Shown here piece by piece: positions 1,103-55,706 of a stretch of DNA of 64,000 nucleotides. Each line of letters starts with the position of its first letter. The stretch's first letter is position 1. Source of the DNA: Tribonema minus. Its lineage: Eukaryota > Sar > Xanthophyceae > Tribonematales > Tribonemataceae. Both the position numbers and the translations under genes were made by a program. Under the pieces are notes generated by a model. That model searched no databases, was not told the origin of the DNA, and saw only the letters and a program-made list of their open reading frames with translations. Where the stretch lies: assembly GCA_017506865.1 (NCBI GenBank), contig JAFCMP010000368.1, positions 310,001 through 374,000 on the forward strand. The letters are read 5' to 3'.

Positions 1103-1421
1103 GCGGCGCCGCAATTCCGCAGCATCGCAGCAGCGGCGGCGGAGGGCTGGAACTGGGACTCGCACAGGCGCCGTGGCTGGGGCGCGAAGCGCAGCGCGAA
1201 GCAGCGCTCAGCGCCGCGCGGCAGTGCCGCCTGTGGACGTCCATTGCTGGGGGGGTGCTGCTGCGGGGGGTGAGGGATCTGGAGGGGTCTACGGGGCTCA
1301 ATGCCTACCTACGGCGTGCGCGCGAGGTGTTGAAGTTGTGCCACGACGAGCCGTGCCAGGAGGTCGTGCGCGTGTACTTGAACTTGGCGCCGCTGCACTT
1401 CGTCATGGAGGATTATCCCAG
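1103..1421 (+). CDS. Gene 1, exon A (first recognisable exon)
   Basis: Reads ELGLAQAPWLGREAQREAAL, then ARQCRLWTSIAGGVLLRG, then YLNLAPLHFVMEDYPR, and ends in phase 2 before gtatgc. The acceptor may be after 1102 or after 1119; the frame is open across both. A decayed copy of its first half lies at about 868-1010 and of its second half at about 1517-1607. Confidence 0.6.
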
Positions 1422-23524: not shown

Positions 23525-26500
23525 CTGCACACATTGAAATTCGGAGAAGGGGGCGCATGCAAACAGGATTAAGACGTGAGATGGTTTACAGTTGCTAATG
23601 TTGCTCGCGTCTGGTGCGCGTGTGCGCACTGTTGCTGAGTATCCCAGCAGCATATGCGTGCAGTAGATACACGTTGCATGCCTCAACAGAAAGCAGAGTC
23701 ACTGTGTGTGCCTTGCCGCGCAGCCGCGCACACAGCTGCACGCGTTGAAATTCGGAAACAGAGCAGCAAGCAAGCAGGATGAGTATATTTTGTGGGGGCT
23801 AGAGCAAGTGTTGTTGCGCTGCTGCCGCGAAGGCGCCAATGCTGAAATTGACGGGCACCTTGAAAGCCACGTAGCGCGCCCTGCCGTGCCGCGCAGCCGC
23901 GCGCACGGCTGCACGAGTTGAAGTTCGGAAACAAAGCAGCAACGAGGGCATTCATCCAGCATAGGGTGTGACTTTATTCATGAAGCTCGAAGAGGGCATT
24001 GCAGAGAGGAATGGGGTTCGAGATGGTATAGTGTCGGTGATATTGCTTGCACCCTATGCGTGCAGCAGAGACATGCAGCAACAGAAAACAAAGGCCAGGG
24101 GAGGTGGCAGCGCGCCATGCCATCTCTCGTGCGCGCTCCAGGGTCTGCTGTCATCAGATCAGTCCATCGCTAATATAGCAGCCTCAAATCTTGCCAGCTG
24201 CAGGTGACTACTCCGATCAATAATATAGCAGCCTCCAACCTTGCCAGCTGCAGGTGACTACTCCGTGTCTGCGCACCATACATGCCCCACTGTAAACCGA
24301 TCCGAGACCGCAACGCACAGGACTATGCACACAATATGACTGCGTTGATTGCTCAAGACCTTGTTATCTATCAAGGCTATCGAGCAGGCCACCTGCCCTA
24401 ATGGCACACCGTTCAGCTACAGTTCTAGGGCTGGATATTGTCCTCCAGACCGGGCTCACGACTAAAGCGTGCAGGACGATACTCACGGTATGTATGCATG
24501 TATGGGCTGAGACATGCTTCAAACGTCAGCAGAACAGAAAGTGCATAGAGGCGGTAGATACATACCTGCCCCAGCGGCACACCGCTCAGCTGCAGATCCA
24601 GCTCCGGCACCTCCAGATAGTCCGGACCCCCCCAGGGTGGGTCCAAAAACACAACGCTCCCCTCAAACGGCAGCACGGCATTGCCCCTTTTCCTCACGCA
24701 ATTACCCGTGCCACCCCCTTCTTCCTTCTTCGCATGCCCATATCCATGCCTAGGGTTGGGGTTAGGGTCTGGCGACGGATGCTGGAAGCTGGAGGGCAAG
24801 CCAGAGTCGGAGTCGGAGTCGCTGGCGTGTGCGCGGCTCTGTACTGCGCTACTGCTCGGTGCCACCGGCGGCGGCGGCGGCAGCGATCCTGCATTCACAG
24901 ACAATGGCGACAGGCTGTCATGACACTGGTGTGATGTGCAGCAGCGCAGCAAAAAACAGACACACTTGGGGTAGGAATGAGTCCGGCGATGGTTGAGGGA
25001 AGCTGGGGGCAAGTCTGAGTCAGAGTCGCTGCTCCTATGCTGCTGCTCGCCGCCACAAGCAGCGGTGGCAGTGTCTTTGCGGTAACAGACAACGGCACAC
25101 AGGCTGTCACAAACAACGGCAATGTCTCCGGGCACCTCCAATATGACTATTGGTTAGGGCTAGCGTCAGGATTCAACACTGTTGCCAGCCAGCTGCCTCA
25201 ACTATGGAGCACGCCTCTTGTGAGTCACTGACCCTAACCCAAACCCTCACCCTCAGTCCTTAAAGGAGCAGCTGGCAGTTTCATTTATAAATTGCATGCA
25301 GGGCACAGGATCCAACAAGACCTAACAACCCAGGCGCTAGGGTTAGGGTTAGCGGTACTTGTGCAAGGACTTGTATTCATAAACGCCCCCAAGGGTGTCC
25401 TATGCAACCTTGAAGTTTGCTCCTACGCGGCAGCCTAGTCTGCACTGTACCGCAGGAGCTTCGGCACCGGTGCTGCAACACAGCCTAGCACTTGCGCTTC
25501 GCGGGTGTACGCCATGAATGTTGGCGGAATTGTCAGGGTTGCGCACCATCTATTGAAGTTTTAACTTCAACTTGCCGTCGACGACCTCCGTGAGGCTGCC
25601 GAAATCGTGTGCTGGACAAGCGCAAGGTTTAGAGTTGGCAGTACTGTAGAGTGTAACAATACCGCCTGGTTTAGATGGTGCTTTCACGTACCGTGGCCAA
25701 CTTCCGTAAGGCTGACGAAATCGTGCTGGAGGCAGTGCACGCGCTGCCGTGCCAGCTTGCCGCCCAACACCACCTGCAGAGGCGCATGCGCGAATTGTGA
25801 AATTTAATTATGTACTTCAAGTATGAAGGTACTTAATTGTAAAAAAACAGCCAACACTGAAGTCGTTGTTATCTATCTGCTACGAGCAGCGTATTTGAGT
25901 ACGTGCACCAACACCACCTGCATGCGCACTTCAAGTGGGAAACACTACAGAAAATTATTTCATTTACATGCTACAAGCAGAAAATTGAAGTGTACGCATA
26001 TGAACATCAGCACCCTGCTGAGACTACCAACAAGGAGTTCAGCTGCCACCCACCGCCGCCTGTACCGCCAGGGCAGTCAGAACCTGGACTGTGTGCTTCA
26101 GCAGCTCATAGCATGCACATCCATATATACCATGTTATACCGTATGTATACCAGTCAGATGTGCAACACACATACCTTGACGTTGTGCTTCAGCAGCCTG
26201 TAGCATGCACATCCGTATATACCATGTCATACCGTATGTATACCAGGCAGATGTGCAACATACATACATACCTTGACGTTGTGCTTCAGCAGCTTGTAGC
26301 GCGTGGGGTCAAGCTCCACGGCCCACACCTGAACGAAGGGTTAGGATCAGGGTTAAGTCAGGCTGCCTGATGTGAGTAGCCGCATAAAGCGTTGTACATC
26401 GAAGCAAATACAGTAACGCCAATGTGAATCACTGTTGACAATGTGGACAAGAATTTATTAGCTCATGCAAGGGCGCTGCCACATGAAAAGGTGTACAACT

Positions 26501-36479: not shown

Positions 36480-37075
36480 GCAGAGCGCCAGGTGTCCTTC
36501 GGCGGCCATGCCAACAGCACAAGGATGCCGTTCACCAGGGTCCCTATCGGAAGGGGATAGGTGCGCCTTTGACCGTCCTGCACCTCAAGCGCAGATGTGC
36601 GCTGCTGCTCGGCTGGGAAGCCCATCGCCTCCCGTGCGTCGTCTTCCGCACGTGGCTCACAAGCGCCTCCGCCGTTGCATCTGCCTGCTGCGATGTGAGC
36701 ATCGAAGGCTTTTTGACAAGCGCGGCCCGCACAGCTCCTTGCAGCTTCTCGCGCGGCCCCACTTTGGCAGGCTGCTGTTGGTTTCCGTTAAACCAAGAAC
36801 ACACTAAGAAGAGGTTTTAAGAAGGAAATACCTCCTTAAGAAGCTGAAATCCCATTTTCTGCACGTGGCTCACAAGCACCTCCCTGCCTGCTGCGATGTG
36901 AACATCAAAGGCTTCTTGACAACCGTAACGCAGCCGCACAGCTTTCGGCATGTCGCGCTCTCACTGCGCAAAAGGCTGGGATTGCATTTACCAGCAGGGC
37001 TTGCACCGCAGGCCTCAGGCGCAGCGGCAGCGGCAGCGGCAGCAGCAGCAGCAGCAGCAGCGGAGGCATCGTCCT
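36480..37075 (-). repeat. Diverged inverted repeat, right arm
   Basis: Minus-strand reading VQALLVNAIPAFCAVRARHA, RAALVKKPSMLTSQQAD, VRKTTHGRRWASQPSSSAHL matches the left arm. A segment is also duplicated within this arm (about 36,645-36,740 and 36,855-36,950: CACGTGGCTCACAAGC...GATGTGA). Arms are clearly older than those at 56-60 kb. Confidence 0.6.
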
Positions 37076-38160: not shown

Positions 38161-38327
38161 GTCACGTGGCAACAGGCGTGGCAGCAGCGGCGGCAGCAGA
38201 GCCGCTGTCGCTTGAGCACTGCTCACACGACATGTCCAGCCGCGCCATACCCGCTCTGAACGAGTCGCTGGTGCAGACATTCGGCGACGGCATCGCACTT
38301 GAAGATGTGAAAATACTGCAAGCACAG
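38161..38327 (+). CDS. Acid phosphatase, first recognised exon
   Basis: Enters with two bases, codes HVATGVAAAAAAEPLSLEHC and GDGIALEDVKILQAQ, and joins VVVRHGSRTP in phase 0. This places it where the 'L..V.v..RHG' strand should be. Three decayed copies of its 5' end lie upstream (37,600-38,085) and three of its 3' end downstream (38,400-38,660). Confidence 0.6.
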
Positions 38328-41300
38328 GTGCGTAGGAAGGGGTTGGGGTTGCTGAACGGTCCACAACTCTTTTTTGAAGTGTCGCGGAGTATGGTGATGG
38401 AAGCGAGCGTGTGAAAATGCTGCAAGCACAGGTGCGCACACTTGATGTTTTGTGGACTGGAAGACGATCGGCGACGGCGTTGCACTTGAAGATGAGAAAA
38501 TACTGCACAGGTGCGCGCACTGAATGTCTTTGTGAACTTGAAGTGATCGTGCGAGCTTATGCGAGAGAAGACTGCTGTTGTCTCATGGCAAGTGCGCGGA
38601 ATTCATGGCGGCGCATTTGTAGATGTGAAAATACTGCAGGCACAGGTGCGCAAGGCAGGAGAATGAACTTCAACCCTGCCATTGTCTCCAAGTCACTGCT
38701 CAGAATACATGCGAAGTGCCACCAAACACAGTGAAGGACATGTGAAATAATATTTTTGTGGAGTTGACCTGCTCATCGCCACTTTCGGGGATTGGGGAGA
38801 GCGAGGGACAAGTTGAAGTTGTGACGACACCGACGCCGCGAGGCAGGAAAACATTGGCGTTCACAGTGCGAAGGGCCGCTGGTGCTGCTGGCCCCAGATA
38901 AACTTCGTTGCACCAAATGTACCAGTACCGTAGGTACAGATGCACATGACCATGCTGCGGTTTGTGTTGAAGTGAGCGATCGCGGGGAGATCTACTTGCT
39001 GACGCGTCCATACTAGAGAGTGCCAGAACATGTACCAATGCAGTGGGCACAGGCACCGCAATGTTGATGTTGAATGTCATGCTGACATTGCTATCATGGG
39101 GAAAGCAGAACAACGCCTCATCTCAAATCTTCAGGTTTATATTCCGCGCCAATTTACCATGTTTGCTGATATTCTCTTCATGCCCTATCTTCATCTGGAC
39201 CGGCACACTGCCCCTTATTATGCTTAGTCCGCCTTCTTGGCAGGAAAGGCTTGCAGCGTTCTTTACGTCTATGATAGTTTTAACTGAAAGGGTGAGGGTT
39301 AGGGCTAAACCTAGGCCTAACGCTAACCCTAGCTGGCCCCAGAACAACGCCTCATCCTCATCTCAAAGCTTGAAGTTTGTCTTTCCGTGCAACTCTGCGA
39401 CGCTTAGCTGCTATTCTCCCCATGTCCTATCTCTACTTGATCAGGCGTACTGCCCGTTGTTGTGCTTGTTTCCACTTCGTGGCAGGCAAAGCTTGCAGCA
39501 CCCTGGCGCCTCTTGTTCTTAGGGGGTTAGGTCTCACCTTACCTTAGGGTTAGGGTTAGACCTATGCTCAACCCTATGAGGGTGCATTGGGCGAACTCCA
39601 TGTTCTCACACTTGCAGCTGCCGTGCTCATGATTCAGCTGTGACGCTGACGGCTCAACTGCAATCTATTGTTACGACCCAGCTACGTATGGTGCTCGCGG
39701 CGCTGACCCTAACCCTAACCCTAAACCCTACAAATGCCGCTCGCGGCTCACAAGCATGGCTTGAAGTTTTCAGTAACCAAGCATGTAACCAATAGTTGTA
39801 CAACTTTAGAAAAATACCAAGAACTGCAAGATTCAGGTGAACTACGGAAGTGCAAGCAATAAATCAATGTTTCAGGTCTGTCTGTTGAATCGCCATCAGA
39901 CTTGTATAGAAGACACCAACTAAACTGGCGCTTTTTTTTTCAGCGGGGGTTTTGTGCAAATACGTATTTCATCTAAGACTGGAAGACCGCAGGCCGCTTG
40001 TGGCTTTGAGGATTTCTCAATTTCCATCCAACACATAAGACAATTTCCTGCACTATCCAAAAGATCATGGCAACAAGAACTGCTACCCCCACAGCTGAAT
40101 TGTGCAAGCTCACAGCGCAACTGCTGCTCACGGCTGCAATGCTCACCGGCGATGTTGTTCTCACAGCTCAGCTGCGTTGACCACAGGGCTCAGCTGCGAT
40201 GCTCACAGCTGTAACGCTCATGACTCAGCTGAAACGCTCACACCAAAGCAGCGATGCTCAGCTGCCACGCTCGCCCAGCTGTGGTGCTCACGGCTGCACC
40301 GCGGCTCAACCGCTGTGCTCACGGCTCAGCTGCTACATCATCGCTCAGCTTACCAGCTACATCAAGCTCACCGCGGCTCCACCGCTATGCTTACAGCTCA
40401 ACTGCTACATCAACGCTCTGCAAATCAGCTACATCAACGCTCAACTGCTACATACGCTCTCACGGCTCAAACTGCTACATCAAACGCTCAGCTGCTACAT
40501 CCACGCTCACCAGCCTTGGTCACATTTCAACTGCTACATCAGACGCTCAGCTGTGTTGACTGACATGTGCTGCGCGCAGGTGGTCGTGAGGCTCAATAGC
40601 TGTGGCCACGGCTCAACTGTCATATTCGGTGCTCACAGCGACATCAAACGCTCAGTTGCTGTGCTCATAGCTCAGCTCAGCCCGTTCATTTACGCGCGCA
40701 GGTGGCAGTTGGTATGCTCCGCCGTAGCTGCTACATGAACGCTCAACTGCTATGCTCTCACACGGGTCAGCTGCTACATCTGCTACATCAATCGCTCAGC
40801 TGCTATGCTCACCGCTCGCTCTTTTTTCTTTCTTTCTCGCGCAGGTGGTGGTGAGGCACGGATCACGAACCCCTTGGGGCGCGTTCTCGTGCTGGCGCGA
40901 TTACGATGTACAATGGGACTGCAATGTGAGTGACTCTCCTCATGTAGACAATTAGGGTAAGGGGTAGGGTTGGGGTTAGGGCTAGTGAACATATCGGGAG
41001 TGTTCTCTCGTCAGGCTGACAAGTAGGGTTAGGTTTAGTGTTAGGTTAGGGCTATCAAAACCCCTTGGGGCGCGTTCTCATGCTGGCGCGATTACGATGT
41101 ACAGTGGGACTGCAATGTGAGTGACGCTCCTCATGCATGCAACAAGGGTTAGGATTAGGGTTAGGGCTTTTGAACCCCTTGGGGCGCGTTCTCATGCTGG
41201 CGCAATTATGATGTACCGTGGGACTGCAATGTGAGTGACTCTCCGATGCGCGCAGACAATGAGGGCTGGGGTCAGGGTTAGGGTTAGGCGATCACGATGT

Positions 41301-44300
41301 ACAGTGGGACTGCAATGTGAGTGACGCTTTTCTGCATGCAGACAGTGAGGGCTAGGTTTAGTGTTAGAAGAAGAACTATGTATGCTCGTCAAGGGTTCAG
41401 CTCACTGTTCCTATTGCCGCCTGCGCTCACAGACAACTACGGTGGAGCGACCCAGCCCGGTGGTCCTGACAAACGGCAGTTACATTGGCGATGGGCAGCC
41501 GCCCATGTTCAGGAAATTGTACGAAGATTCCGGAAAAAGCGCCAACACGCTGCTTGGCGGGACGTGCATGCTGGGGCAGCTGCTGGTAAGTTTCATACTT
41601 CATACTTCGAAGTAGAAGTACATTTTCGGCCCTTGCGCAATTAGGTTGAAGTGTAGTGGCTGGCTTCGGGGGTTAGGCGTAGCAGTACGGCGACCCTGGC
41701 CCTAGGGTTAGGGTTAGCTGGTGAGGCCAATGGCAATGTGCCACAGACATTGACAGCTTCTGCGCATTCGATTGAAGACCATGCGGCGGCCTGCTTGGCA
41801 TTATGGTTAGGGTCAGGATTAGGGTTAGGTTATGGGTTAAGTTAGGGTTTCCGCGTCGCAGCTGATGCCGGTATGCCGCTATGTGGGTCCAGGTAAGGCT
41901 CCCGCTGCTTGGTGCTCATGTATTTCTGCAGAGGACAGCCTGTAGCAGCACGTGGCCAACGGGAGTCTGCTGAGGAACGCCGCAGTTCATCGCAAGTTTA
42001 CTGTGCTGATGTCCCGTTCATTATGAGTTCACTGTGCTAAATATACCCTATGCTCATGTATTGCTGCAGGAGGACGGACTGCAGCAGCATGTGGCCAAGC
42101 AAAATACATGCCACGGTTCATCTTGAGTTCACTGAGTTGGTGTACCCTGTACTCGTGCACTGCAGTAGGAGGACGAACTGTCACAACAGCACATAGCCAT
42201 CGCAGACCTGCTGAGGCATGCCGCAGTTCATCATGAGTTCACTGTGCTGGTGTACCGTGCACTTGCATACTGTTGCTGCAGGAGAGGCTGCAGCAGCAAA
42301 TATGCAAACCTGCTGGGGCATGTGCAGTTCATCATGAGTGCACTGTGCTGGTGTATCATTTGCTCATGTACTACTGCAGGAGGAGGGACTGCAGCAGCAC
42401 GTGGCCAATGGGAACCTGCTGAGGGACGCCTACATCTGCAAGGGGGGGGCGCAGTGCCTGTTCCAGGACGACCTGGAAGCGGTGTCAACGCTCATCAACG
42501 GCAGCGCATCAGGTTAGCGCTCAATCACATGTCGTGTATGCTTTGCAGTACATTTAGATGAGAGGGAAGTCAGTGGAAGCACTCACGCACTCGCAGTATC
42601 GCTGTTCGAAGCGAAAGCACGACGAACACACAAATTAAGAAATGCCATCACGGTGACAGTGATGTGTCTGTTTGGAAGCGGTGTCGACGCTTATCAACGG
42701 CAGCGCATCAGGTGAGCGCGAACCCTAACCTAACCCTACCCCTCACCCTAACCCTAAGACGATATGAACAGTGAAACCTGTCCCCAGATGCACCCACAGT
42801 TTCGCTGAATTTTTTTGTAGAGAAAGCGCGATAAATACACAGATGAAGACATGCCATCACGGTCACAGTGGTGTGTCTGTTGGAAGCGGTTCAACGCTCA
42901 TCAACGGCAGCGCATCAGGTGAGCGCTCAATCACATGTCACACGTGCTTTGCAGTACACTCAGATGAGAGGGAAGTCAGTGGAAGCACTCACGCACTCGC
43001 AGTATCGCTGTTCGAAGCGAAAGCACGACAAACACACAAATTAAGAAATGCCATCACGGTGACAGTGATGTGTCTGTTTGGAAGCGGTGTCGACGCTTAT
43101 CAACGGCAGCGCATCAGGTGAGCGCGAACCCTAACCTAACCCTACCACTCACCCTAACCCTAAGACGATATGAACAGTGAAACCTGTCCGCAGATGCACC
43201 CACAGTTTCGCTGAATTTTTTTGTAGAGAAAGCGCGATGAATACACAGATGAAGACATGCCATCACGGTCACAGTGGTGTGTCTGTTGGAAGCGGTTCAA
43301 CGCTCATCAACGGCAGCGCATCAGGTGAGCGCTCAATCACATGTCACACGTGCTTTGCAGTACACTCAGATGAGAGGGAAGTCAGTGGAAGCACTCACGC
43401 ACTCGCAGTATCGCTGTTCGAAGCGAAAGCACGACAAACACACAAATTAAGAAAAACCATCACGGTGACAGTGATGTGTCTGTTTGGAAGCGGTGTCAAC
43501 GCTCATCAACGGCTTTGCATCAGGTGAGCGCGAACCCCAACCTAACCCTGACTTTAACCTTAACCCTGACCCCAAGACAATATGAAAAGTTCCCGTTCGC
43601 ATGGTGAAAAAGTGGTGCCACGTTTGAGGTGTGGCATTGCTTGCGTGAGCAAGGTGAACATCAGTTGAGCACTGTGACATCATTGGTACGCCAACTTGCG
43701 GTGTCAACGCTCATCAACGGCTCTGCATCAGGTGAGCGATCGATAATAAGATAGAAGTATGAGTAGCTAGGACCCGTTAAAAAAAAAACTTGCCTGCTCA
43801 ACGCACTCACATCTGCCAACGCACTCACAGCATCGCTCTCAGGAGGAAACCGCGCTTGACATTCACCTTACATGCTATCACGGTCACAGCGGTGTGTCAC
43901 TTGGCGGTGCCGTTAGCTCTTATTGACGGCACCGCATCTGGTGAGAGGCTGGTGTCCAGATTGTCGAACTTCAAGGCACTCATGCATCAATTTCAAGCGG
44001 TGACGTTTATCACGTGCCACGCAGCCTCAATTACTTCGAAGTACTTCGAAGTATGACTTTTAGCATGGGACCTTTTGTTCTGCTTCAATCTTCAGTTTTA
44101 GGTAATAACAAACCTTACTCGCTTTCACATTCAAATAGAAAATCCGCACATGAGTGACACCACCATTGCTCCTCGTGGCGCCTGCGGAAGGGAGATGCAG
44201 AGCCAAACTTCAACATGAATGCGTGCATGGCAGCACCTTTCTTTGATGTTTTCCTCCAGTGTCACTCGCATATGGTGACGTCAGCATTCCGTGCCACTGT

Positions 44301-47300
44301 GACTGCGACAGGCGAGGTGCGACTGCGGAGCACTGACTTGCAGCGCACGCTGCTGAGCAGGCAGACTGTCACAGAACTTCACCTTAAATGCGTGCATGGC
44401 AGCACCTTTCCCTGATGACGTCTTCCTCCGGTCATTATCGACTTCTCATCATCAAATCCGTGTCATCACTGGGCTTTGTGGCATGCGAGGTGCGGCTGCG
44501 GAGCACTGACTTGCAGCGCACGCTGCTGAGCGCGCAGACGCTGCTTGTTGCCCCACCGAACTTCGCCATGCATGCGTGCAAGGTAGCATTTTCCCCTGAT
44601 AGTCTTTTCCTCTAGTGCCACCTGTCAAATAGTGAGATCATCATTCCCTGTCATTTTGATTGCAGGCGAGGTGCGGTTGCTGAGCACTGACCTGCAGTGC
44701 ACGCTGCTGAGCGCGCAGACGCTGCTGTCACCGAACTTTAACTTCAATGCGTGCATAGTCGCACCATTGTCTACAATGATGCTTTGTTGGTTTTCTCTCT
44801 CCAGTGTCGACCGGTGAATGGTAACGTCATCATTCTTTACCGTTGCGATTGCGGCAGGGGAGGTGCGGCTGCGGAGCACTGACTTGCAGCGCACGCTGCT
44901 GAGCGGGCAGACCCTCACGGCGACGTTCTTCGACGTGGCAGCGGCGCGTGCAGCAGCGCTCGACGCACTGTATAGGCCCGACGCGAACGTTAATGGCACT
45001 GGCACCGGCCCTTTTCCCAATGCTACTGCTGACTCACAAGGGTGAGTCTATGTATGTTTCAGTCAGGGTAAGGGTTAGGGTTAGGGATAGGGTTAGGGTC
45101 ACGCGCGCAGCAGCGCTCGACGCACTGTACGGCCCCGACCCGAATGTCAACGGCACTGGCACCGGACCATTCCCGAATGCTACCGATTCACAAGGGTGAG
45201 CTTCATTATTGGTCAGGGTCTGGCCCCTTGCCTAATATCCTTTTTTTTCAACGGCGACTCCGATGCGTGTCAGTAGGGTATCGAGTGACGGTGCGTTGGA
45301 TGCAAACGTCGATGGCACTGGCACCGACCCTTTCCCGTATGCTACTGATTCATATGGGTGAGTCTATGTATGCATCGATTAGGTTAGGGGTAGGGTTAGG
45401 ATTAGGGTTAGGCTTAGGGTCAAGCGCGCAGCAGCGCTCAACGCACTGTACGGGCCCGATGCGAGCATCAATGGCACCGGCGCTGGACCCTTCCCAAATG
45501 CTACTGATGCGCAAGGGTGAGCCCATGTATGCGTCGGTCAACGACTGGCTCCTCATGTTCCCTATTCACAAGGGAGATGTGTTTGGGTCAGAGCTAGGGT
45601 TCTGGTCGACAGTGTGATGGATGCGCTGTACAGGACCGATGCAAACATCTCAACGGCATCGGAGCCAGCCCCTTCCCCAATGCTACCGATATACACGGGT
45701 GAGCTGAAGAGCTTCGCACAGCGTGGTTCTCAAGCGCAATCCCTACATAAGGGTAGGAGTCGTACAGTCGAGTTAACAGAGTTAGGGTGTAATAGACCTA
45801 GGGCTAGGGTTTCGGTCGACAATGCGTTGGACGCAGTGCCTGAACCCGCTGACTTGTGTCCTGTCAACATTGAAGCTCAAATAGTACTCCACTTGTTGGA
45901 CTCTAAAGTTTGCAATGCATGCTGTGCTGTTGCCTCTCTAGCCACAGCGCTTCCGCTGACGACACTGGCACCCCTACTGGCGTTGACTTCGGGCTGCTGA
46001 CCGGGGAAGCGCTGATTTGTGCTCGTTCAACATTGAAGTTGAAGTAGTGCTTCCACGTGAACTCTAAATTGCGATGCTGTGCTGATGCCCCTCTTGTCAC
46101 AGCGCTTCTGCAAACGATACTGGCATGCCCATCGGCTTAGCTGACTGGGGACGCGCTGATTGTGCCCAGCCAATACTGACGTTGAAGTTAGCATGCCACG
46201 CTTGAACTTCAAGTTGAGATGCGCGCTGTGCTTTCGCTTCTCTGGTCACAGGGCTTCCGGAAATGACACCGGCATTCCCATTGGCGTAGACTTGGGTCTG
46301 CTGACAGGGGACGCGCTGATTGTGCCCTGGCACACTGGCGACTATGCTGTTGACAGGCTATATACAAACGAGCAGGCCTGCCCAAGGTGAGTGCATTGTG
46401 TAATGCATCGGGTCATCGTTCATTCACTTTCATGTGAGTTTCATGTACTGTGCACAAATATATGCTTTGAAGTGTCGTATTTTGAACAGTACATTCAAGT
46501 AGAGCTTGATCTAATTAGTATTGCAAACATGCGTCCTCGGAGTATTGGCACACTGGCGACTATGCTGTCGACAGGCTATACACAAAACGAGCAGGCCTGC
46601 CCAAGGTGAGCCCCATGATGCATGGCATTTTGTTGCGTGTGCTAGGGGTAGGGTTAGGGTTAGGTAAATAACCCCAAATGTATATACTGCACGTGTGTGC
46701 AATGCTTTGCAGTATATATTGGCGACTATGCTGTTGACAGGCTGTACACAGACAAGCAGGCTTGCCCTAGGTGAGCCCTGTTGTGTAGTGCATGGCATGA
46801 TCATTCATTGACTTTCATGTACTGTGCACATCTGTACATTTTTTGGTTCAAATACAAAAATATATCCCCAAATGGATACCACGTACATAACGGCACACTG
46901 ACAACTATGCTGTTGACAGGCTGTAAAAAAGCGAGGCAGCGTGTTTCAGATGCACGGGCATGCAGTGTACGATGACTTGCTTTGGCAGTGCTTCTGCATG
47001 CATACTTCAACTAGAAGAAATTGTGCCTGCATTCGCTGGTCTGCTCGTATTGCAATTGCCTGTCTTAGCAAGCTCACCTCTGGGTCTCCTCTGGCATGAG
47101 TAGTTGGGCGTGCAGGCGACTACTCCTTTGATTTCCAACTTCAAGAATGACGTGCTTCAAGTATTACATTTTTAAAAGTGAACTTGTGAAAGTATCTCAA
47201 CTTCAAGTAACTCTCCCGCATCGCCTCCGTACCATCTCCTTACTGAGCTGCTAACCTGACCCTAACCCTAACCCTAAATAAAAAAGCCTCGCTCCGAAGT

Positions 47301-50300
47301 ACGCACTGCTTGCTTGCTTGTGAAGAGCGCTCGTTCCTCCCAACCCTACAGCAATATTTATGTTTTAGACTTCAAGTACACAGCAGGTGTCAGCTCTCCA
47401 CACGCACTACCTCCAATAATTAAATTCAAAATAAGTTATGAATAACTGATTGCAAACATTCAACTTCAAATGACTAGTGATTTTCGCGAGCCGCAGCAGG
47501 TGCGCAGCGATGCTCAACACGTTCCGCATTGAGGCACTTGCGCTTGCAGTTCTACGCTGCTCACCATTGCGACTGCTCATCGCAGGCTGACGGAAATTGC
47601 TGCAGCATCCAGCAACTCTCCAGAATTCATTGAGGAGTTCCACAAGTCGCCGAACGTTCGCGCACTCAACGAGTCCATCAAGGCGGCATGGGGCATCAAC
47701 GACGTGGACTGGAAGTGAGTCCACGTGTACTGGTTGGTGGTACACTGTACTGTGCCATACTGTGTGGTACTGTGGGTATACTGTTGTTGTGTCGCTCAAC
47801 GAGTCCATCATCAAGGCGGAGCGGGGCATCAACGACGTAGAATTGAGTACAGATGGACAGTTCAACAGTAGATTGTACTGTGCCGCGCAATACTGTACTC
47901 CATATGCACTGTGGTCGTACCGTTGGATGTGGACTGGAAGTGCGAACACACGTGAGCAGTTCAACAGTCGAGCATACTGTGTCGTACTGTGCTGTACTGT
48001 AGTGTACTATACTGAAATGCGGTTGTACTGCTGTCGTGCCGTGGCATGCGCATCAATGACGTGGACTGGGAGTGAGTGGGTACACGTACGGCGCACTGTT
48101 TGGACTGCACCGTCAACGGCACTGCAAACCTGATGTAGATACTTGAAGTTATGCAGCTGTGCCGTGCCCTCTATGTCAGGATCGCATTGGACTGCACCAT
48201 CACCAAGGCGTGCACAGGTTTCAGTTCACAGTAATTTAATTTTCTGGATACTGATGCAATACTGTGGAAATGCGCGGCTTCACACCCCCATGCACCTGGC
48301 GATAATCCCAGGTAGTACAGTGGAAGCACGCGGTTCCGCAAGGTTGACAGACAACAAGCAAGGACACACGAGAGCGGTGTGCTGTTGCAAGCTGAGAGTG
48401 ATTAGGATGCAGGCACGCAAACCATGTTGCCCAGGCACAAGAGACTGCTCGCAGTCAGTAGCAACATGGTGCTGACTACCGTGGTCCTAGTTGAGGGCCC
48501 TAGGTGCTGTGATAGGCTGACTGAGCACCAATCCAAGCCTACAAGCAACTGCTGAACTACAAGGTGTTTGAGCCGTTATATCCTGAGCCCAAAATCTGCC
48601 AGGAAACTGCAGAATGTAGCCGTGAAATGCGCCAGATTCCCACAATACTAACATCACTAAATTCAACTTGCACATATACATTTTCAGAAAAAGTCCCAAC
48701 TGAGTTTATAAACTGTGCCGTGCCCTCCCATGTCAGAATCACATTGGACTGCACCATTACCACATCGTGCACAGGTTTTAATGTTACAGTAATCAATACT
48801 GATGTAAGAGCAAACTTACTTTATGAATTCAACTCGAACATTCACACCTTCAAAGCTTCGCAACTGAACAAACTGTGCCGTGCCCTCTGTGTCAGGATCA
48901 CACTGGACTGCACCATTACCACGGCCTGCACGGGCAACGCGCTGCCGCCAGATATGACGCCAGAGCTCGTTGCATCAGTGCTCAACATCTCGACGTTCGT
49001 GGAGAACTACAAGCACTTCTACAACGACAATGAGTGAGTTTATTCATGCGACAATGAGTGAGTTCATTTATGAAAACCGCAGTGCTCAAGTGAATTCATG
49101 GTTTTGTGCGGAGCTGGCGTTGCGAATGCTCAACATCTCAACATTTGTGGAGACCTACAAGCACTTCTACAACGACAATGAGTGAGTGCAAGTGGCTTAA
49201 TGAATATTGCGGTACTCAACAGTGAATTAACGATTTCCTGCAGAGCTGGTGTCGCGGGTGCTCCACGTCTCGATATTTTGTGGGGAATTACTTCAAGTTG
49301 AAGCACTTGTAGAATAATAATGAGTGAGTGTTTCAACAAGCGCTTAAATTCATGAATGCTGGGGCTGGAATTTTCTTCCAACAGCTTTGTGCTGGTAGCA
49401 CGCTGTTGTTTCAATAACATACTTGTTTAGTGTACAGGTTCGCTAAATATTACAGGCGCTGCTGATGGCACAGGATCAGAGTATGCATGCATTGCGTTGT
49501 TTGAGGGTGTCAATAAGGCAACTTAAAGATGCGCTGCAGCAACTCAAGTTTGGAATAATCAGAGATTAACGCAGCGTGCTGTGGACGCCATAGAGTAAGA
49601 TGTTTTTGGGTACAATTTTTTGGACTTCTACAAAGTCTATTGGGGTTCTATCACAATTTTGGATAGCTTCCTTTTGAAATAAAATTCATCCTTCCCCGTG
49701 TGCGTTGCAGATTCGCCAAGCTGTTGCAGGCGCCACTGATGGCGGAGCTGTGCGGCCACGTGGAGTTAACTTCAACACTATCAACTTCAAAGTTGAAGAA
49801 ACGCTAATTATATTCAATGTTTGACAGCTGACTGATTGAGTTGAAATTCATCTTTCCTCGTATGCGTTGCAGATTTGCCAAGCTGTCGCAGGCGCCGCTG
49901 ATAGCGGAGCTGCGCGGCCATGTGGAGGTGGCAACTTCAGCACTATCAACTTCAAAGTTGAAGTTTGGACTGTGGGCCGGCCACGACAACACGCTGATGC
50001 CACTGATGGCCGCCATTGCCAGTAGCAGCTGGGGGGAGGGCAGCAAGTGGGTGCCGTACGCAAGTATGGTGGTGCTGGAGCTGTATCAGGTGACCACACG
50101 ATCCCTTTCCCCGATGCACCTGTTGAACACTGCAAGAGCCAACCTTAGCTTTAGCCTTTCCCCTCGATCTTCAAGTCCCTTCCCCTCCCGGCTCCGCCGC
50201 CAGGCAGCCAGCCAGTGCTAAAGTGCTAACCCTAACCCTAGTTATCCCAACCCTAAGTGCACAAGTGGGTGTCGTACGCGAGCACGGTGTTACTGGAGCT

Positions 50301-53300
50301 GTACCAGGTGACTGATTAGGTAACCCTTACCCTTTTACTGCTGCAGCTGATATTAAGCAGCACAAGTCTTGCTCCCCCCCTTCCCAGCTCCGCCCCTGGG
50401 CAGGGTTAGGGTTAGGGTTAGGGTTGTGCTAACCCTAATCCTAGTGATAGAGCAAGTGGGTGCCGTACGCAAGCATGGCAGTGGCGCTGGAGTTGTATCA
50501 GGCGCCTACATGTCTACAGCTGGCCGACACCAAGAAAGCAACAATCGTTCAAAGGGCACAATTGGGAACGTTCCCCGTTGCTACTGATTGCCTCTACAAT
50601 CGTCATCGCCGCTCGAAAGGGCACGCGCTTACATAATCGTAGCCCCGCAGAAGGCATAGTCTTCGAGGGCTACGAGGAGGCCCTGACACATTAGCAGCTC
50701 TCCGTCATCGGAGCCACGGTGGTTTGAGCTGACAGTTTGACACGGGCTTGTCAGCGTAAAGCGTAAGCGATTGTCTGTGAAAGTTTTGCAAACCGTGCTG
50801 GTTTCGGCAAGAAAAACTCTGCCCTAGTTGACTGCCAAATTGAACTGTCCTATGAAGCACATCGCCACAGACGGCGCTGCCAATAACTTCTACAGACAAT
50901 CTCTAGTGTTTGGCCTTCGCCACCTCTCTTGCAAGTCGCAGCAGCTATCTCGGCGAATTGGTTGACGGACGTCCATTTTTAGAATTTGTTTTGGGCTTGA
51001 TGTTAGCCAGCTGTACTACATCACTCTGACCGTTTTCCTGATGCAGTTCTAAGTCTGTTAAGTGTTAGGTGGTGGATTTCTTCCTGCCAACTTCGACTGA
51101 TGTTTGCTCAAGTAGAGGGGGGTGGTGCGTTTTTATAAATAAATATTTTTTGACGAAGTGTCCTGACCCTGACTTAGGGTTGAAGTTAGCGTTAGGGCAT
51201 GAATTTTTCCCTTTTAAAAATTGACCTGGATTGTGACAAACACAACAGTCCGAACCGCCACCAATCAATCGCGTGCATGTGGCCAAGGCGACGTGCAATG
51301 ACCCTCACTCACCCTAACCCTAACCCTGACCGTAACCCTATCTGGTCTGCCACGGAGCGACAATACCTAGTGTGTGAACCTACCGCTTCTCTCGTTGACG
51401 CAGGTGGCCAATGAGGCGTATGTGCGGCTGATCTTCAACGGATCGGTGCTGCACGTGGTCTGCCTGTGTGCATACCTACCTTGTAATACAAGTGACGCAG
51501 AGGATACTTATGGTTTGACGTATTCCCCACACCATCCTGGATTATTTAAATACTTGTAGATGATACCATTCATTAGCGGTATACCATGTGTGTGAACCTA
51601 CTACTTGTTTTATTCATGCAGGTGGCCAACGAGGCGTATGTTCGGCTGATCTTCAACGCAGCTTTGCATACATACCATGCAATACAGAAGACACGTACAC
51701 GCATATGAACGTACTACTTTTGGCATGTATGCAGGTGGCCAACGAGGCGTATGTGCGGCTGATCTTCAACGGAGCGGTGCTGCACATGGACGGGGGCTGC
51801 GCAGGAAAAGATCTCTGCGCGGTACAAGACTTCTTGGAACTGACAGGTGAAACTCCAACTTTTGTAAAACCTCAAGAAGCATATCTTTGCTTTGGTTTAC
51901 AAAACTTAACAGGATATTTGTGCGGTTCAAGACTGCTTTGGAGCCGACAGGTGAAACTTCAACTTTGGCAAAACCTCACATTTGTGCTAATACAAAACCT
52001 TTTGGAGCTGACAAGGTGAAAGCTCAACTTGGGGTGAAACCTCAAAGGACCTCTGTGCGATTCAAGACTTCTTGGAGCTGACAGGCGAACCTCAACTCTG
52101 GTAAAACCTCAAAAGTGAACTTCAATTTTGTTAAAACGTCAAATACATTTGTGCTGTACAAGACATCTTGGAGCTGACAGGTAAACTTCGATTTTGGTCA
52201 ACTCTCAAAGGGTCTCCAAGCTATACAAGGCCTTTTGGAGCGCAATTTGAGTGAAACCTCAAAAGATCTTTATGCGGTACAAGACTTCTTGGAGCCGACA
52301 GGTGAAACCTCAACTCTGGTGTTTCACCTCAACTCTGGTACAACCACAAGGGATCACTGTGAGGTGAACCTCGACTTGGGCAAAACCTCAAATGACAACT
52401 GTGCTATACAAGACCTTTTGGAGCTGACAGGTGAAATGGCAACTTTGGGTGAAACCTCAAAGGATGTATGTGCCGTACAATACTTCTTGGAGCTGACAGG
52501 TGAAACCTCAACTCTGGTATGGAAGTCATACCGTTGAAACCTAACGAAAGGATCTGTGTGAGTTGAACCAAAGGAGCTCTTGTGAGGTGAACCTCAGCTT
52601 TGGTAAAACCTCAAAGGACCTCTGTGCGGTACAAGACTTCTTCATCCTGACAGGTGAACCTCAAGACTGGCAGAAACTCCAAAGATCTCTGTACTGTACA
52701 AGAGCTCTTGCTGACAGTTGAACCTCAACTTTGGTAAAACCGCAAAGAATATCTGTGCTGTGCTGCCAGATTTCTTGGAGCTGACAGGTGAAACCTCAAC
52801 TTCAGTAGAACCTCGAACTCTGGTTGAGAGCACGTTTGTCTGAGCCACGCTGGTCAGCAATGTGTGATCAGGGAGACCTCTGGTTCTTCTCTGGTCATTA
52901 GGGTTAGAACTATGGGTTAGCTACAGTAGGGTGTCGCAGAAGCTGATGGTCAGATTAAGGGTCAATGGAAACGAATCAAAAGATCGTAGAGCTCTAGGTG
53001 ACGAGGTGTGGTTAACCACTAATCCTAGGGTTAGGGTCACGGCCAACACCAAAAGAATTGTTGTCGCTGTGGCAGGTAGAATATATGAAAACGAATCAAT
53101 AAGATCGTTGAGCTCTAAGTGACAAGGGATGGTTAGCCGCAAGTGCCTTCCACCAATACCCGTAGTTGCCGCTGCTGCAGCCATCGGCCGCGAGTCAAAC
53201 AGTACCACCACATTCACAGCAGTCAAAAACACTTCTGTGTGCAACCTTCTGAGGGTTCGAGGCATATTGGCTTGTAGGCATGGACTGTGCATTTCTTGGG

Positions 53301-55706
53301 TTAGGGTCAGGGTTACAATCAGAGCTAGGATTAAAATTTAGAGCTAGGTTGAAATTAAAGAGGATTGGGTTGTGGGCGTGGACCTGTGCATCTCTTGACG
53401 CTAACGGGTGAAAGGTTTGGCATCAGTGTTCAGAGCAAAAAAAAAAAGATGGCTGTGTAGGACAACAGAGGGCCAACGGACGCAGTGGCGCCAGCATTCA
53501 ACGCCAAGTTTGCATGTAGCTGCCGGCCTGCTTCAGCACTTACCCTAGCCCCCTCTTAAATTCTAACCCGCATCACGTGGCTCATTGCAGCCTGTATGCA
53601 CCCCTGCGTGGCAGCCGGCTGCACGGCCAGCAACTTCAATAAAAACACTTCAACACATCTCAGTTGTTTTCTGTTTTGCCACCTGAATGAGCCCCAGCCC
53701 CAAAACCTGTCTGCATTCTGCCAAACTCGGTGCTGTTTGCTTGAACGTCCATCCATTTCTAACTTCAGCCCTACTCTAACTTCAGTTTGTCCCTACTTAA
53801 ACTGCACGTTTCCTCTGCCCGCGCCGTGCGCTGCAGCCTTGTGCTGCAAGACCGCGCGGTGACCACTTGCACAGCGGCAAGTTCAGCATTGAACCTTCCG
53901 TTTCACCTCCTACTGTGTGAGCCTAAGCTCAAGTTTTCAGCGCTGCTCCACACCGCACTGCAGCCTTTGTGCCAACTGCACGGCGGCAACTTCAACAGCA
54001 TTCAATCTTCCGTTTCACCTCCTACAGGTGTGAGCCTACTCTAAGCTCAAGAGTTCACCGCTGCCCCGCACGCGCTGCAGCCTTTGTGCAAGGCCCATTC
54101 AGTTTTCTGTTTCACCTCCTCTGCCAGTGTGAGTGAGCCCACTCTACCTGCAAGGGTTTTGCCGCTGCCCACACCGCACTGCAGCCTTTGTGCAAGACCC
54201 CGCGGCACCCAAGGTGCTGTCTGCTTGTGGGGTTTTCATTTAACTTCAACAATACTATAACGTCTAACACCTTGCTTCAACTTTGAGCTTTCACCACCGT
54301 CTGCGCCGTGCTGCAGCCTTTGTGCAAGACCCCGCGGCGACCAACTGCACGGCGGCGCTGCCGCCAGCGGTGCCTGCGCAGACGCCATTGCCCACCGAGC
54401 AGCCGACAGCAGAGCCCGTAGCGCCCGAAGTGGTGCCTCCCGTGCCCACCGCTCCGCCGACGGAAAAGGTTCTGCCGGGGGGCACAACGGGACCCGGGGG
54501 ACCGGACGACGCGCAGGTGTGTACTTCAAGTTTGAAGTTGTTTATAGTTGGTGTAGTGATACACGGAATGCGCCTCCTGTGCCCACCGCTTCGCCAACGG
54601 AAAAGGCTCTGCCGGGGGGCACGCCGGGGCCAGGGGGGCGCCGAAGGTGCATACTTAGAGTTTGAAGTTAGACATATAGTTGAAGCGTTGTGCTAGTGCA
54701 GGCGTAGCGATGATAGAACTCTACTCCTGTGCCGACCGCTTCACTGACGGAGAAGGTTCTGCAGGGGGACGCGGAGAACGCGCACTCGCGTACTTCCAAA
54801 TTTGAAGATTGAAACCCTCACTTGAGTCATTGCATGCGCCATGCTTTGCACTCTGCAGGCAGGTGGTGACCTTCTCTCTGGCGTACTTCATGGCTGGGCC
54901 AATGGCTTCAGAGCTAGGGTTAGGGTTCACAATAGGGTTAGGGTTAGGGTTAAGCACTGACTGACTGTTCGAGTTCGCACTGGTGAACTTGAAGTTCTGC
55001 CTTCAACCAGGACAGCGCCGCTCGCACCCATAGGCGCATTTGCATTACACACAAGACACTCCTCACTCACGCGTCTTTCTTCGCATTGTGCAGGCCAATC
55101 AGCACAGTGGGCAGGTGGTGGTGGCGTTCTTTCTGGCATGCTTGTGACTGTCCTAATAGCAACAAACTTCTCCGCAATGTGCACTGACACTGTTTGAGTC
55201 CTCGTTGTAAGTCTGAAAGTGCCCCATTACAGCACGCACAAGACACGCTCCTGAGAACTGGATCCCTCACTCACGCGCCATTATTTGCATTCTGCAGACC
55301 AATCAGTACAGCGGGCAGGTGGTGGGGGCCTTCTCTCTGGCGTGCTTCTTCACAACTCACACACTAGAAACGCTCCTGAGAACTGGATCCCTTACTGGAG
55401 TTATCTCACAAATCCCTTTTGTCCATGGCTGACAAGAAAACGCCTGAGACCTGAATCCCTCGCTCGCGCGCCATTCTTTGCATTCTGCAGGCCAACCAGT
55501 ACAGCGGGCAGGTGGTGGTGGCGTTCTCTCTGGCGTGCTTCATCATCGGCCTCCTCACCGGGGCAGCGCCGCTCATCATCTTTCAGCGGCGGTTCAACTA
55601 CGAAGCAGTGGGGGGTGCGGATACTGCCGTAGATTCGGGCGGGTACCAGTACCAGATGCCTGAGATTTCCAACAATGTGCGGCGGAACCTGGAGACTTTT
55701 GCGTGA
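38161..55706 (+). CDS. Gene 4: type I membrane histidine acid phosphatase (5' partial)
   Basis: Twelve exons join in phase to about 620 codons: 38161-38327, 40845-40925, 41433-41585, 42380-42512, 44858-45041, 46252-46386, 47586-47714, 48896-49033, 49873-50089, 51735-51846, 54317-54516 and 55491-55706. Motifs in order are VVVRHGSRTP (catalytic His nucleophile and Arg), LEEGLQQHVANGNLLRDAY (the usual 'LT..G..Q...LG..LR..Y'), EVRLRSTDLQRTLLS (phosphate-binding RSTD..RT), AGHDNTLMPLMAA (HD proton donor), YVRLIFNGAVLHMDGGC, a Pro/Thr-rich stalk, one transmembrane helix (VVVAFSLACFIIGLL) and a 40-residue tail. Nine N-x-S/T sequons fit a lumenal or surface domain. This is the architecture of lysosomal/prostatic acid phosphatases, which hydrolyse phosphomonoesters. 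The signal-peptide exon is not located upstream. Confidence 0.85.
39700..39727. repeat. Interstitial CCCTAA block
   Basis: CCCTAACCCTAACCCTAA in the intron before the RHGSRTP exon. Other blocks in the same intron lie at about 39,296-39,330 and 39,541-39,562. Confidence 0.85.
40100..40830. repeat. Short-unit minisatellite before the RHGSRTP exon
   Basis: Irregular repeats of 'cacggctcaactgctacatcaacgctcag' with units of 12-30 bp fill the end of the intron. Two decayed copies of the acceptor ('cgcgcaggtggtcgtgagg', 'cgcgcaggtggcagttgg') are embedded at about 40,567 and 40,693. The long open frames here are produced by the repeat. Confidence 0.75.
40845..40925 (+). CDS. Acid phosphatase, RHGSRTP exon
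   Basis: A 27-codon, phase 0/0 exon, VVVRHGSRTPWGAFSCWRDY then DVQWDCN, with the family signature. Three decayed copies of its 3' part plus donor follow at about 41,060-41,325, each next to TTAGGG-like blocks. Confidence 0.85.
41433..41585 (+). CDS. Acid phosphatase, third exon
   Basis: A 51-codon, phase 0/0 exon (TTTVERPSPVVLTNGSYIGD, FRKLYEDSGK, LLGGTCMLGQLL). It supplies the GQL part of the conserved 'G.LT..G' motif and one NGS sequon. Confidence 0.8.
42380..42512 (+). CDS. Acid phosphatase, fourth exon
   Basis: Codes EEGLQQHVANGNLLRDAYIC, FQDDLEAVSTLINGSASG; phase 0 in, 1 out. Four decayed 5' copies precede it (41,925-42,330) and about four 3' copies follow (42,660-43,740). Confidence 0.8.
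42520..43530. repeat. 406-bp tandem duplication inside an acid phosphatase intron
   Basis: About 2.5 nearly identical 406-bp units. Each contains two echoes of the fourth exon's 3' end with a donor (ACGCTCATCAACGGCAGCGC, atcaggtgagcg) and a CCCTAA block. Near-identity marks this as the youngest duplication among the intron echoes. Confidence 0.85.
44300..44760 (+). repeat. Decayed copies of acid phosphatase RSTD exon 5' end
   Basis: Three copies of 'cag', GCGAGGTGCGGCTGCGGAGC, ACTGACTTGCAGCGCACGCT and GCTGAGC at about 44,310, 44,487 and 44,665. They keep the RSTDLQRTLLS reading frame better than most echoes, so they could work as alternative exons. Confidence 0.8.
44858..45041 (+). CDS. Acid phosphatase, RSTD exon
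   Basis: Completes Gly and codes EVRLRSTDLQRTLLSGQTLT, then ARAAALDALYRPDANVNG; phase 1 in, 2 out. Three decayed 5' copies lie at 44,300-44,760 and four 3' copies at 45,100-45,700. Confidence 0.85.
45066..45100. repeat. Interstitial TTAGGG block
   Basis: Several TTAGGG-like units directly between the RSTD exon's donor and the first echo of its 3' end. A matching block recurs with the next echo at about 45,380-45,420. Confidence 0.85.
46252..46386 (+). CDS. Acid phosphatase, sixth exon
   Basis: Codes ASGNDTGIPIGVDLGLLTGD and YAVDRLYTNEQACPR; phase 2 in, 2 out. Decayed copies of the 5' end precede it and of the 3' end follow it. Confidence 0.75.
47586..47714 (+). CDS. Acid phosphatase, seventh exon
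   Basis: Codes LTEIAAASSNSPEFIEEFHK and ALNESIKAAWGINDVDW; phase 2 in, 2 out at gtgagt. It likely belongs to the helical cap domain between the RSTD and HD motifs. Confidence 0.7.
48896..49033 (+). CDS. Acid phosphatase, eighth exon
   Basis: Codes ITLDCTITTACTGNALPPDM and LNISTFVENYKHFYNDNE; phase 2 in, 2 out. Two 5' copies (about 48,150 and 48,705) and at least two 3' copies (to 49,330) surround it. Confidence 0.75.
   Translation, partial: DHTGLHHYHGLHGQRAAARYDARARCISAQHLDVRGELQALLQRQ
49873..50089 (+). CDS. Acid phosphatase, GHDNTL exon
   Basis: Codes FAKLSQAPLIAELRGHVEVA, LKFGLWAGHDNTLMPLMAAI and KWVPYASMVVLELYQ; phase 2 in, 0 out. HD is the general-acid motif. The GAAGTT repeat motif is read in frame just before it (SALSTSKLKF). 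Confidence 0.85.
50400..50450. repeat. Interstitial TTAGGG block with inverted partner
   Basis: GGTTAGGGTTAGGGTTAGGG followed closely by CTAACCCTAATCCTAG, so both orientations meet head to head within an acid phosphatase intron. Confidence 0.85.
51735..51846 (+). CDS. Acid phosphatase, tenth exon
   Basis: Codes VANEAYVRLIFNGAVLHMDG and CAGKDLCAVQDFLELT, matching the family's 'v.vlyNg......C....C....F'. Phase 0 in, 1 out. Two close 5' copies precede it and about ten 3' copies follow over 900 bases. Confidence 0.8.
51870..52800 (+). repeat. About ten decayed copies of acid phosphatase exon 10 3' end
   Basis: Units of about 80-100 bp repeat CTGTGCGGTACAAGACTTCT, TGGAGCTGACAG and gtgaaacctcaac. 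This is the densest echo array in the window and follows directly on the exon it copies. Confidence 0.8.
54317..54516 (+). CDS. Acid phosphatase, Pro-rich stalk exon
   Basis: Codes FVQDPAATNCTAALPPAVPA, then a Pro/Thr/Glu-rich stretch and GGTTGPGGPDDAQ; phase 1 in, 0 out. It probably forms a stalk between the catalytic domain and the membrane. About five 5' copies precede it and two 3' copies follow. Confidence 0.75.
55491..55706 (+). CDS. Acid phosphatase, transmembrane and tail exon
   Basis: A phase 0 exon: ANQYSGQ, a 24-residue hydrophobic helix (VVVAFSLACFIIGLLTG...), then QRRFNYEAVGG and a cytoplasmic tail with GGYQYQMPEI (a possible YxxPhi-like sorting signal) and TGA. Confidence 0.8.
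   Translation, partial: ANQYSGQVVVAFSLACFIIGLLTGAAPLIIFQRRFNYEAVGGADTAVDSGGYQYQMPEISNNVRRNLETFA

Follow-up and report, generated by a model that had tools for sequence, protein, structure and literature searches.

Many introns of the yellow-green alga Tribonema minus hold direct copies of the edges of their own flanking exons, together with the adjoining splice junctions, and we confirm this pattern of "echoes" both in an acid-phosphatase gene of the 64,000-nucleotide stretch of DNA analysed (the window) and in introns of other genes. The account of these echoes that we consider probable is recurrent tandem duplication of a general kind, combined with selection on the outermost junction. The interpretation in the preliminary description of this DNA, i.e. 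of a process specific to splice junctions, is partly supported by the data presented here.

Echoes along the acid-phosphatase gene

The phosphatase gene, the sole one of the four genes in the preliminary description to be mapped here exon by exon, lies on the + strand at about 40.8-52.8 kb of the window, and its exons (all coordinates below refer to this strand) were located by tblastn with an Ectocarpus homologue. Each of its eight introns contains at least one echo of an adjacent exon edge, with donor-side echoes in five and acceptor-side echoes in six, at identities of 0.75-0.97 to the exon edge; in all three introns holding both kinds the donor echoes precede the acceptor echoes. The exon at 40842-40934 (RHGSRTPWGAF...WDCNVSD; E 1.2e-5 with Ectocarpus P0121), which is the copy continuous with the coding sequence, is followed by three donor-side echoes of its end (41066-41125, 41180-41239 and 41288-41325; identity 0.97, 0.92 and 0.95). 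Beyond the exon at 41487-41585 (E 0.006) lie four acceptor-side echoes (41926-42318; 0.75-0.94) of the exon at 42374-42460 (E 0.003), and three further acceptor-side echoes (44309-44366, 44481-44539 and 44662-44720; 0.90-0.95) precede the exon at 44854-44937 (LRSTDLQRTLLSGQTL; E 7e-4), again the copy continuous with the coding sequence.

Two acceptor-side echoes within 45949-46159 (0.78 and 0.79) derive from the exon at 46252-46387 (IVPWHTGDYAVDRLYTNEQACPR; E 0.015 with P0121 and 1e-6 with P0122), the donor of which was read from the sequence as GTGAGT and is followed by three donor-side echoes (46546-46606, containing a one-base insertion, 46720-46771 and 46892-46939; 0.97, 0.88 and 0.87). 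Between a presumed exon at 47587-47712, an open frame identified by eye without a homologue match, and the exon at 48895-49033 (ITLDCTITTACTG...FYNDN; E 2e-5) are two donor-side (47795-47841 and 48043-48069; 0.91 and 0.89) and two acceptor-side echoes (48179-48218 and 48738-48775; 0.85 and 0.87). Two donor-side echoes (49127-49181 and 49258-49323; 0.93 and 0.79) and one acceptor-side echo (49712-49765; 0.89) then lead to the exon at 49874-50088 (AGHDNTLMPLMAAI; E 8e-10), where a weak Pfam match to His_Phos_2 (~49892-50089; E 0.0052) falls below the family cut-off. The following intron holds two donor-side (50256-50306 and 50451-50500; 0.83 and 0.94) and two acceptor-side echoes (51403-51458 and 51621-51667; 0.95 and 0.91), ahead of a presumed exon at 51734-51846 (VANEAYVRLIFNGAVLHMDGG...DFLELT), an open frame between AG and GT without a homologue match. 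On reading the sequence, 51847-52817 proved to be an array of decayed copies of this exon's end and donor, with self-BLAST pairs within 51806-52817. No annotated T. minus protein for this gene was found among the two matches to proteins of 0.55-1.75 times the query length, and Pfam scans of six further stretches of the window gave three weak matches, one of them plausible.

Echoes and local repeats beyond the phosphatase gene

An independent set of 57 introns (114 exon edges) was assembled from 15 loci picked by protein family (FtsZ, tubulin, TCP1, kinesin). Exons were taken from HMM matches, introns spanning a missing exon were skipped, and three matches overlapping a neighbour's profile range (at L034, L035 and L036) were dropped as presumed echoes before counting. 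Relative to a null of exon edges compared with introns of other genes, 20 donor-side and 16 acceptor-side edges (of 57 each) were echoed in their own intron above the 99% level, with 1 of 114 in the reverse-complement control. At a score above 16, 34 of 114 edges recur as direct copies in their own intron, in keeping with tandem duplication across exon-intron boundaries, and none of 404 tests placed an edge in another intron of the same gene, which agrees with the earlier impression that echoes do not come from unrelated exons. Donor echoes lie within the 5' half of the intron (17/19) and acceptor echoes within the 3' half (15/15), and the donor-before-acceptor order reported in the preliminary description holds in all seven introns with both kinds. 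Its statement that most introns hold echoes fits the phosphatase gene but is too strong for this set, where 27 of 57 introns (47% at this sensitivity, i.e. score above 16) do so and five of the 15 loci gave no echo across their ten introns. Echo-bearing introns are longer, with a median of 931 bp (n=27) against 535 bp for those without an edge echo (n=30; p = 0.0002).

Local duplication is, however, not confined to splice junctions. Self-BLAST of the window returned 122 direct repeat pairs and five inverted pairs; members of 118 of the direct pairs are less than 1 kb apart, and copy spacing has a median of 143 bp (IQR 112-174, n=100, steps of at least 500 bp left out), so that orientation and distance are those of local tandem duplication. 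Local direct pairs were also present in 15 of 16 other 10-kb pieces of the genome (1 to 44 each), which together contained one inverted pair. Among interior intron 60-mers, exon-like ones included, 34.5% (n=417) have a direct copy nearby, on one side or the other, compared with a null rate of 1.4% (n=220), and the rate neither rises nor falls systematically away from the exon. For non-exon-like interior probes (n=965) the figure is 26.3% on either side, or 16.7% and 17.1% per side, against 31.6% per side at exon edges. Copies scoring above 40 are found for 13.2% of exon edges and 1.1% of non-exon-like probes. The per-side gap may be due largely to a conserved exon edge diverging more slowly, but this explains only part of the excess of high-scoring copies, so that an exon-anchored process may also contribute. 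Repeats are rare in coding exons (6/351 probes) relative to matched intron segments (181/1620, 11%). An earlier coding control, in which none of 3961 bp fell within local repeats, came from loci that are partly repeat-poor and is superseded by this count.

Origin and decay of the echoes

We propose that tandem duplication over short distances is frequent in the T. minus genome, with units mostly of 110-175 bp (about 140 bp) that are observed chiefly in non-coding DNA. Where such an event straddles a splice junction, the edge of the exon, its splice site and the beginning of the intron would all be present twice. Because only the first copy on the donor side, or the last on the acceptor side, would remain attached to the body of the exon, this outermost copy would stay under selection, the inner copies would turn into intron and decay, and repeated rounds would generate arrays and a longer intron; duplications within coding sequence would mostly be purged by selection. 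In line with the preliminary description, the outermost copy is continuous with the coding sequence and the inner copies are decayed; the outermost site is presumably the one used in splicing. The duplications may originate in replication or repair, with a unit of nucleosome or Okazaki-fragment size, and mis-processed flaps, paired-nick fill-in or microhomology are candidate routes, although this origin is conjectural. Of 21 pairs with at least 90% identity, four cover the whole offset between copies, two at least 0.7 of it and 15 less than 0.7; clean tandems numbered only seven, too few to judge microhomology at their seams. TTAGGG telomere-like tracts, considered as a cause, showed no clear link to the arrays (17/59 lie in array spans covering 20% of the sequence).

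Several observations nevertheless count against general tandem duplication as a complete account: edges are echoed nearly twice as often per side as interior probes, high-scoring copies are far commoner there, the 38 most similar echoes contain an excess of synonymous differences (99/161 vs 44% expected, p = 1.6e-5), repeats are patchier than in neutral simulation, and one third of the loci lack echoes. The first two, and principally the second, would follow if duplication were directed to exon-intron boundaries, e.g. by exon nucleosomes, transcription or R-loops, with interior repeats representing old arrays pushed inward. Between adjacent echoes, the score also declines away from the exon in 36 of 54 untied steps (p = 0.02), which hints weakly at growth beside the exon, and the nearest echo is the best-scoring at 14 of 25 boundaries (9.1 expected). 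We regard such directed duplication as unlikely, given that interior probes show no distance trend, that divergence is about equal for nearest and further echoes (0.099 and 0.104), and that duplications are common in non-exon-like sequence. The earlier proposal that introns grow outward from their exons draws some support from intron length and the distance trend, but is tempered by the interior duplicates.

The synonymous excess could instead reflect exchange between exon and echo, whether by gene conversion or by echoes serving for a time as alternative exons, that keeps the exon-like parts similar. High-score echo-echo pairs (91 of 207 differences synonymous vs about 28% expected) are consistent with this, as is L035, where five echoes are 90-98% identical to the exon start and the upstream part differs; no long second copy of this piece was among the matches listed. 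Yet the proportion of synonymous differences drops to 37% among the least similar echoes, the expectation models mutation bias by transition rate only, and, of the 70 gaps found in 102 echoes, 64 cause a frameshift, so the echoes are not coding. Greater similarity of the exon-like part in 11 of 11 arrays, with a sharp drop at the splice site, had suggested exon-specific conservation. We have withdrawn this reading, since arbitrary 60-mers in non-exonic repeats show an equal contrast between identity inside and outside the match (0.17, vs 0.19 for exon echoes; p = 0.16); the contrast therefore mostly reflects how copies were found, and the drop at the splice site resembles the one seen where any intronic repeat ends. 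Repeats generally are patchier (0.17-0.21) than neutral simulation between echoes predicts (0.02-0.09). Exchange accordingly appears distinctly improbable. It is very improbable indeed that the echoes serve as exons, whether ordinary or mutually exclusive: some nearest echoes do differ by synonymous changes alone (e.g. L022 intron 4, L025 intron 5), but echoes mostly represent one edge of an exon, number up to eight at a boundary and, unlike mutually exclusive or cassette exons, do not keep the frame in every copy. The abundance of tandem duplicates might also recall the birth of introns by duplication of an exonic AGGT segment, but that process predicts a downstream-exon copy at the 5' end and an upstream-exon copy at the 3' end, the reverse of the positions and order seen here, and we find it barely credible.

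Less probably, T. minus introns might still grow mainly from their exons, by duplication with a unit near nucleosome or Okazaki size that is strongest at exon-intron boundaries, with young echoes exchanging with, or constrained like, the exon before decay; were this so, the genome would preserve a lasting record of intron growth driven by exons.

Comparison with known systems

Intron length varies greatly between lineages, a variation often attributed to transposons. The echo arrays of this alga make intron growth visible: duplicated junctions can be seen in roughly half of the introns sampled, which also run longer, and counts and dates for growth by short tandem duplication could therefore be obtained at each boundary. 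Every array moreover offers a natural experiment on spliceosome choice among near-identical competing sites, because the outermost copy should win. A literature search, mostly without subscription papers, found no genome described with splice-junction echoes as a common intron architecture.

Gao and Lynch reportedly described internal gene duplication with intron creation, which resembles the present case in that parts of genes are duplicated internally at splice boundaries; we know of no genome in which internal gene duplication is the main source of intron sequence. In plants, break repair gives rise to patch-mediated or paired-nick tandem duplications that are likewise direct and short (tens to hundreds of bases), although the T. 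minus junctions are mostly too old for comparison. AGGT duplication resembles our system in that local tandem duplicates interact with splice sites, but it makes a new intron, whereas in T. minus introns already present become longer, with the copies in the opposite order. A potato RdRp gene underwent a tandem duplication crossing an intron-exon boundary, with splice signals inherited as in T. minus (PMC4974935); that was a single event in one gene yielding one new intron, whereas T. minus has many affected boundaries, often with several copies, and no new intron was seen. Yeast deficient in rad27/FEN1 forms tandem duplications from unprocessed Okazaki flaps, some with internal sequence between units (PMC13202174), but this is a mutant or stress state and its connection to T. 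minus is conjectural. Introners (PMC9860276) are similar introns dispersed through a genome and likewise provide a bulk supply of intron sequence. We found no near-identical introns dispersed in many genes: one 4.3-kb gene piece with arrays was matched elsewhere over only ~30-70 bases (40 of 86 candidates scored). Whereas introners are dispersed, the copies in T. minus are local to each boundary.

Distribution of echoes among introns

Tribonema minus is a yellow-green alga (xanthophyte) allied to the brown algae; its assembly comprises 158 Mb in 554 contigs, the window being bases 310001-374000 of contig C368. Our general sample consisted of 57 introns between consecutive exon hits at 15 loci, taken from whole-genome hits of the tubulin/FtsZ, TCP1 and kinesin families and picked by family and by the presence of several exons close together, so that echoes (decayed copies of an exon edge and its splice site inside the adjoining intron) played no part in the choice; a minority of the kinesin/kinase loci found was covered. 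Exon ends were taken from HMM or tblastn hits, with splice sites placed by rule for 55 of the 57 introns. Presumed to be echoes, three hits that overlapped the profile range of a neighbour were excluded from the exon list, and the two introns containing an excluded hit (intron 3 of locus L035, intron 3 of L036) hold additional echoes besides. Six loci match the FtsZ query (L016, L018 weakly, L019, L021, L025 and L027), five having several separate exon hits and L027 a single open frame. Kinase hits are near-equal and similarly spaced on contigs C90/C179 and on C144/C223/C278, which suggests haplotypic or recently duplicated contigs that would be useful for tracing polymorphic duplications. An element of about 825 bp (L031:2096-2921) is present in at least about 40 copies of roughly 97% identity.

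Within the sample, 36 of 114 exon edges exceeded the 99% null level and 34 exceeded a score of 16 in their own intron, against one of 114 in the reverse-complement control and none in 404 tests of other introns of the same gene. Of the 19 donor echoes 17 lay in the 5' half of the intron, and all 15 acceptor echoes lay in the 3' half, the donor echo coming first in all seven introns having both. The arrangement set out in the preliminary description, in which donor echoes precede acceptor echoes and each derives from its own flanking exon, is thus borne out. At least one echo was found in 27 of the 57 introns, with variation between loci: all six introns of L035 contain echoes, and none was found in the ten introns of L016, L017, L024, L037 and L038 combined.

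The best-mapped gene of the window, to which the preliminary description had pointed, lies on the + strand and encodes a histidine acid phosphatase. Of the nine exons used, seven were placed by a 491-residue Ectocarpus homologue (P0121) or a second homologue (P0122); the P0121 E-values (8e-10 to 0.015) are weak for single exons, but the exons are collinear. The remaining two (47587-47712 and 51734-51846, both +) were placed from the open frame and the splice sites alone. Donor-side echoes of the upstream exon end occur in five of its eight introns, acceptor-side echoes of the downstream exon start in six, and at least one echo in all eight. The copy that extends the homologue alignment upstream is the first one at a donor (40842-40934, with echoes at 41057 and 41177), and the copy that extends it downstream is the last one at an acceptor (44854-44937); this outermost copy, contiguous with the remainder of the exon, is probably also the one that is spliced. 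At 42474-43590, 2.6 copies of a 406-bp unit, about 96% identical, form one of the most similar duplications in the window.

Elsewhere in the window, an inverted duplication of 1.66 kb (56322-57980 and 58583-60229) shows 91% identity. A weak Methyltransf_15 (RNA cap guanine-N2 methyltransferase) match on the - strand at about 24566-24661 (E 0.0036) falls below the family cut-off; the open frame at 24425-25141 contains DPPWGGPDY, which we take to be typical of TGS1. The motif TTCAACTTCAA recurs on both strands of the window and 23 loci (273 kb), its 23 sites falling into 20 one-kb bins.

Nature, spacing and decay of the copies

Across the 57 introns and the window gene, 102 echoes were recorded at 130 edges, 44 of which had at least one. 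Since 64 of the 70 gaps in echo-exon alignments shift the frame, the echoes are not maintained as coding exons. At the 25 edges with two or more echoes, scores moving away from the exon stepped down 36 times and up 18 times (ties excluded, p = 0.02), and the nearest copy was the best at 14 edges (9.1 expected). Copy spacing had a median of 143 bp (interquartile range 112-174, n = 100), as measured with 60-base probes to which spacings far below 60 bp are invisible and with steps of 500 bp or more excluded. Introns with echoes were longer (931 v 535 bp, p = 0.0002), although longer introns offer more room for matches; the null level, however, is about 1%.

Echo-echo identity in the exon-like part exceeded that in the intron-like part in all 11 arrays, and ungapped identity drops steeply beyond the splice site; for these and for the comparison that follows, only the better-placed splice sites were used. 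An exon-specific contrast was nevertheless rejected: the fall from inside to outside was about equal in echoes (0.85 to 0.67; 11 arrays, 55 pairs) and in non-exonic repeats (0.82 to 0.65; 23 introns, 144 pairs; p = 0.16), and echoes are detected via their exon-like part.

Splice junctions and intron interiors

Self-comparison of the window gave 122 direct repeat pairs, 118 of them separated by less than 1 kb, and five inverted ones; 15 of 16 other 10-kb pieces contained local direct pairs (1 to 44 each), with one inverted pair in total. In coding exon hits, same-exon recurrence was seen for 6 of 351 probes, compared with 181 of 1620 (11.2%) in length- and locus-matched intron segments; in an earlier BLAST-based control, drawn from loci that overlap in part only, local direct repeats took up 0 of 3961 bases of coding sequence and 6101 of 22866 bases of intron. 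Non-coding DNA is thus widely affected by duplication, and a duplication that spans a junction would be retained when the outermost junction still works. General short-range tandem duplication, with selection on the outermost junction, is in our judgement the probable explanation.

The preliminary description had instead ascribed the process to splice junctions, with introns growing outward from exons, and this holds only in part. Of 417 interior 60-base probes, exon-like ones included, 34.5% had a nearby direct copy to one side or the other (25.4% and 24.0% per side), and 26.3% of 965 non-exon-like interior probes had one too. Exon edges, however, for which only a single-sided match is possible, reached 31.6% (n = 114; null 1.4%, n = 220), nearly twice the per-side rates of the non-exon-like probes (16.7% and 17.1%), as duplication directed to exon-intron boundaries would predict. 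Against this, by rough reasoning an echo should diverge from a conserved exon edge slightly more than half as fast as two free copies do from each other, enough in itself for a ratio of about 1.6. That reasoning does not account for the copies with scores over 40, which occur at 13.2% of edges but at 1.1% of non-exon-like probes. Among the 38 echoes of highest similarity, synonymous changes make up 99 of 161 differences (p = 1.6e-5) against 44% expected for a free echo and an exon accepting synonymous changes only, with mutation bias modelled by transition rate alone; both observations would fit exon-anchored duplication or exchange. The synonymous share drops to 48% and then 37% in less similar classes. 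Overall we regard duplication anchored at the boundaries as unlikely. It is doubtful, too, that introns grow mainly from exons by a duplication of about nucleosome or Okazaki-fragment size, young echoes exchanging with the exon or being constrained like it.

Possible origin and comparison with known systems

Direct orientation, short range, repeated copies, loss of frame and longer introns with echoes are seen directly; under general tandem duplication, the copies may arise in replication or repair. The unit is close in size to a nucleosome or an Okazaki fragment. Unprocessed flaps are reported to cause duplication mutations in rad27 yeast (PMC13202174), and by analogy a flap-derived source in T. 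minus may be taken as a lead only. Of the 21 pairs reaching 90% identity, 15 span under 0.7 of the offset between the copies; rearrangement at a later stage, templated filler or patchy exchange would therefore be needed as well. A simple neutral simulation did not reproduce this patchiness. Short interstitial telomere-like (TTAGGG)n tracts are very common, with 59 loci in the window and 16 other 10-kb pieces, 34 of these places being in the window (e.g. 46648, 47258, 50225 and 51310); in sampled introns TTAGGG was on the sense strand in 12 of 14.

Tandem genomic duplication is recognised as a way in which introns are gained (PMC3443670), and a tandem duplication crossing an intron-exon boundary is described in potato (PMC4974935). 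Compared with the intron-gain model, the copy order in T. minus is reversed, and the pattern is therefore not intron gain by that model. It is best called an already known process, ordinary tandem duplication, elevated to a common intron architecture.
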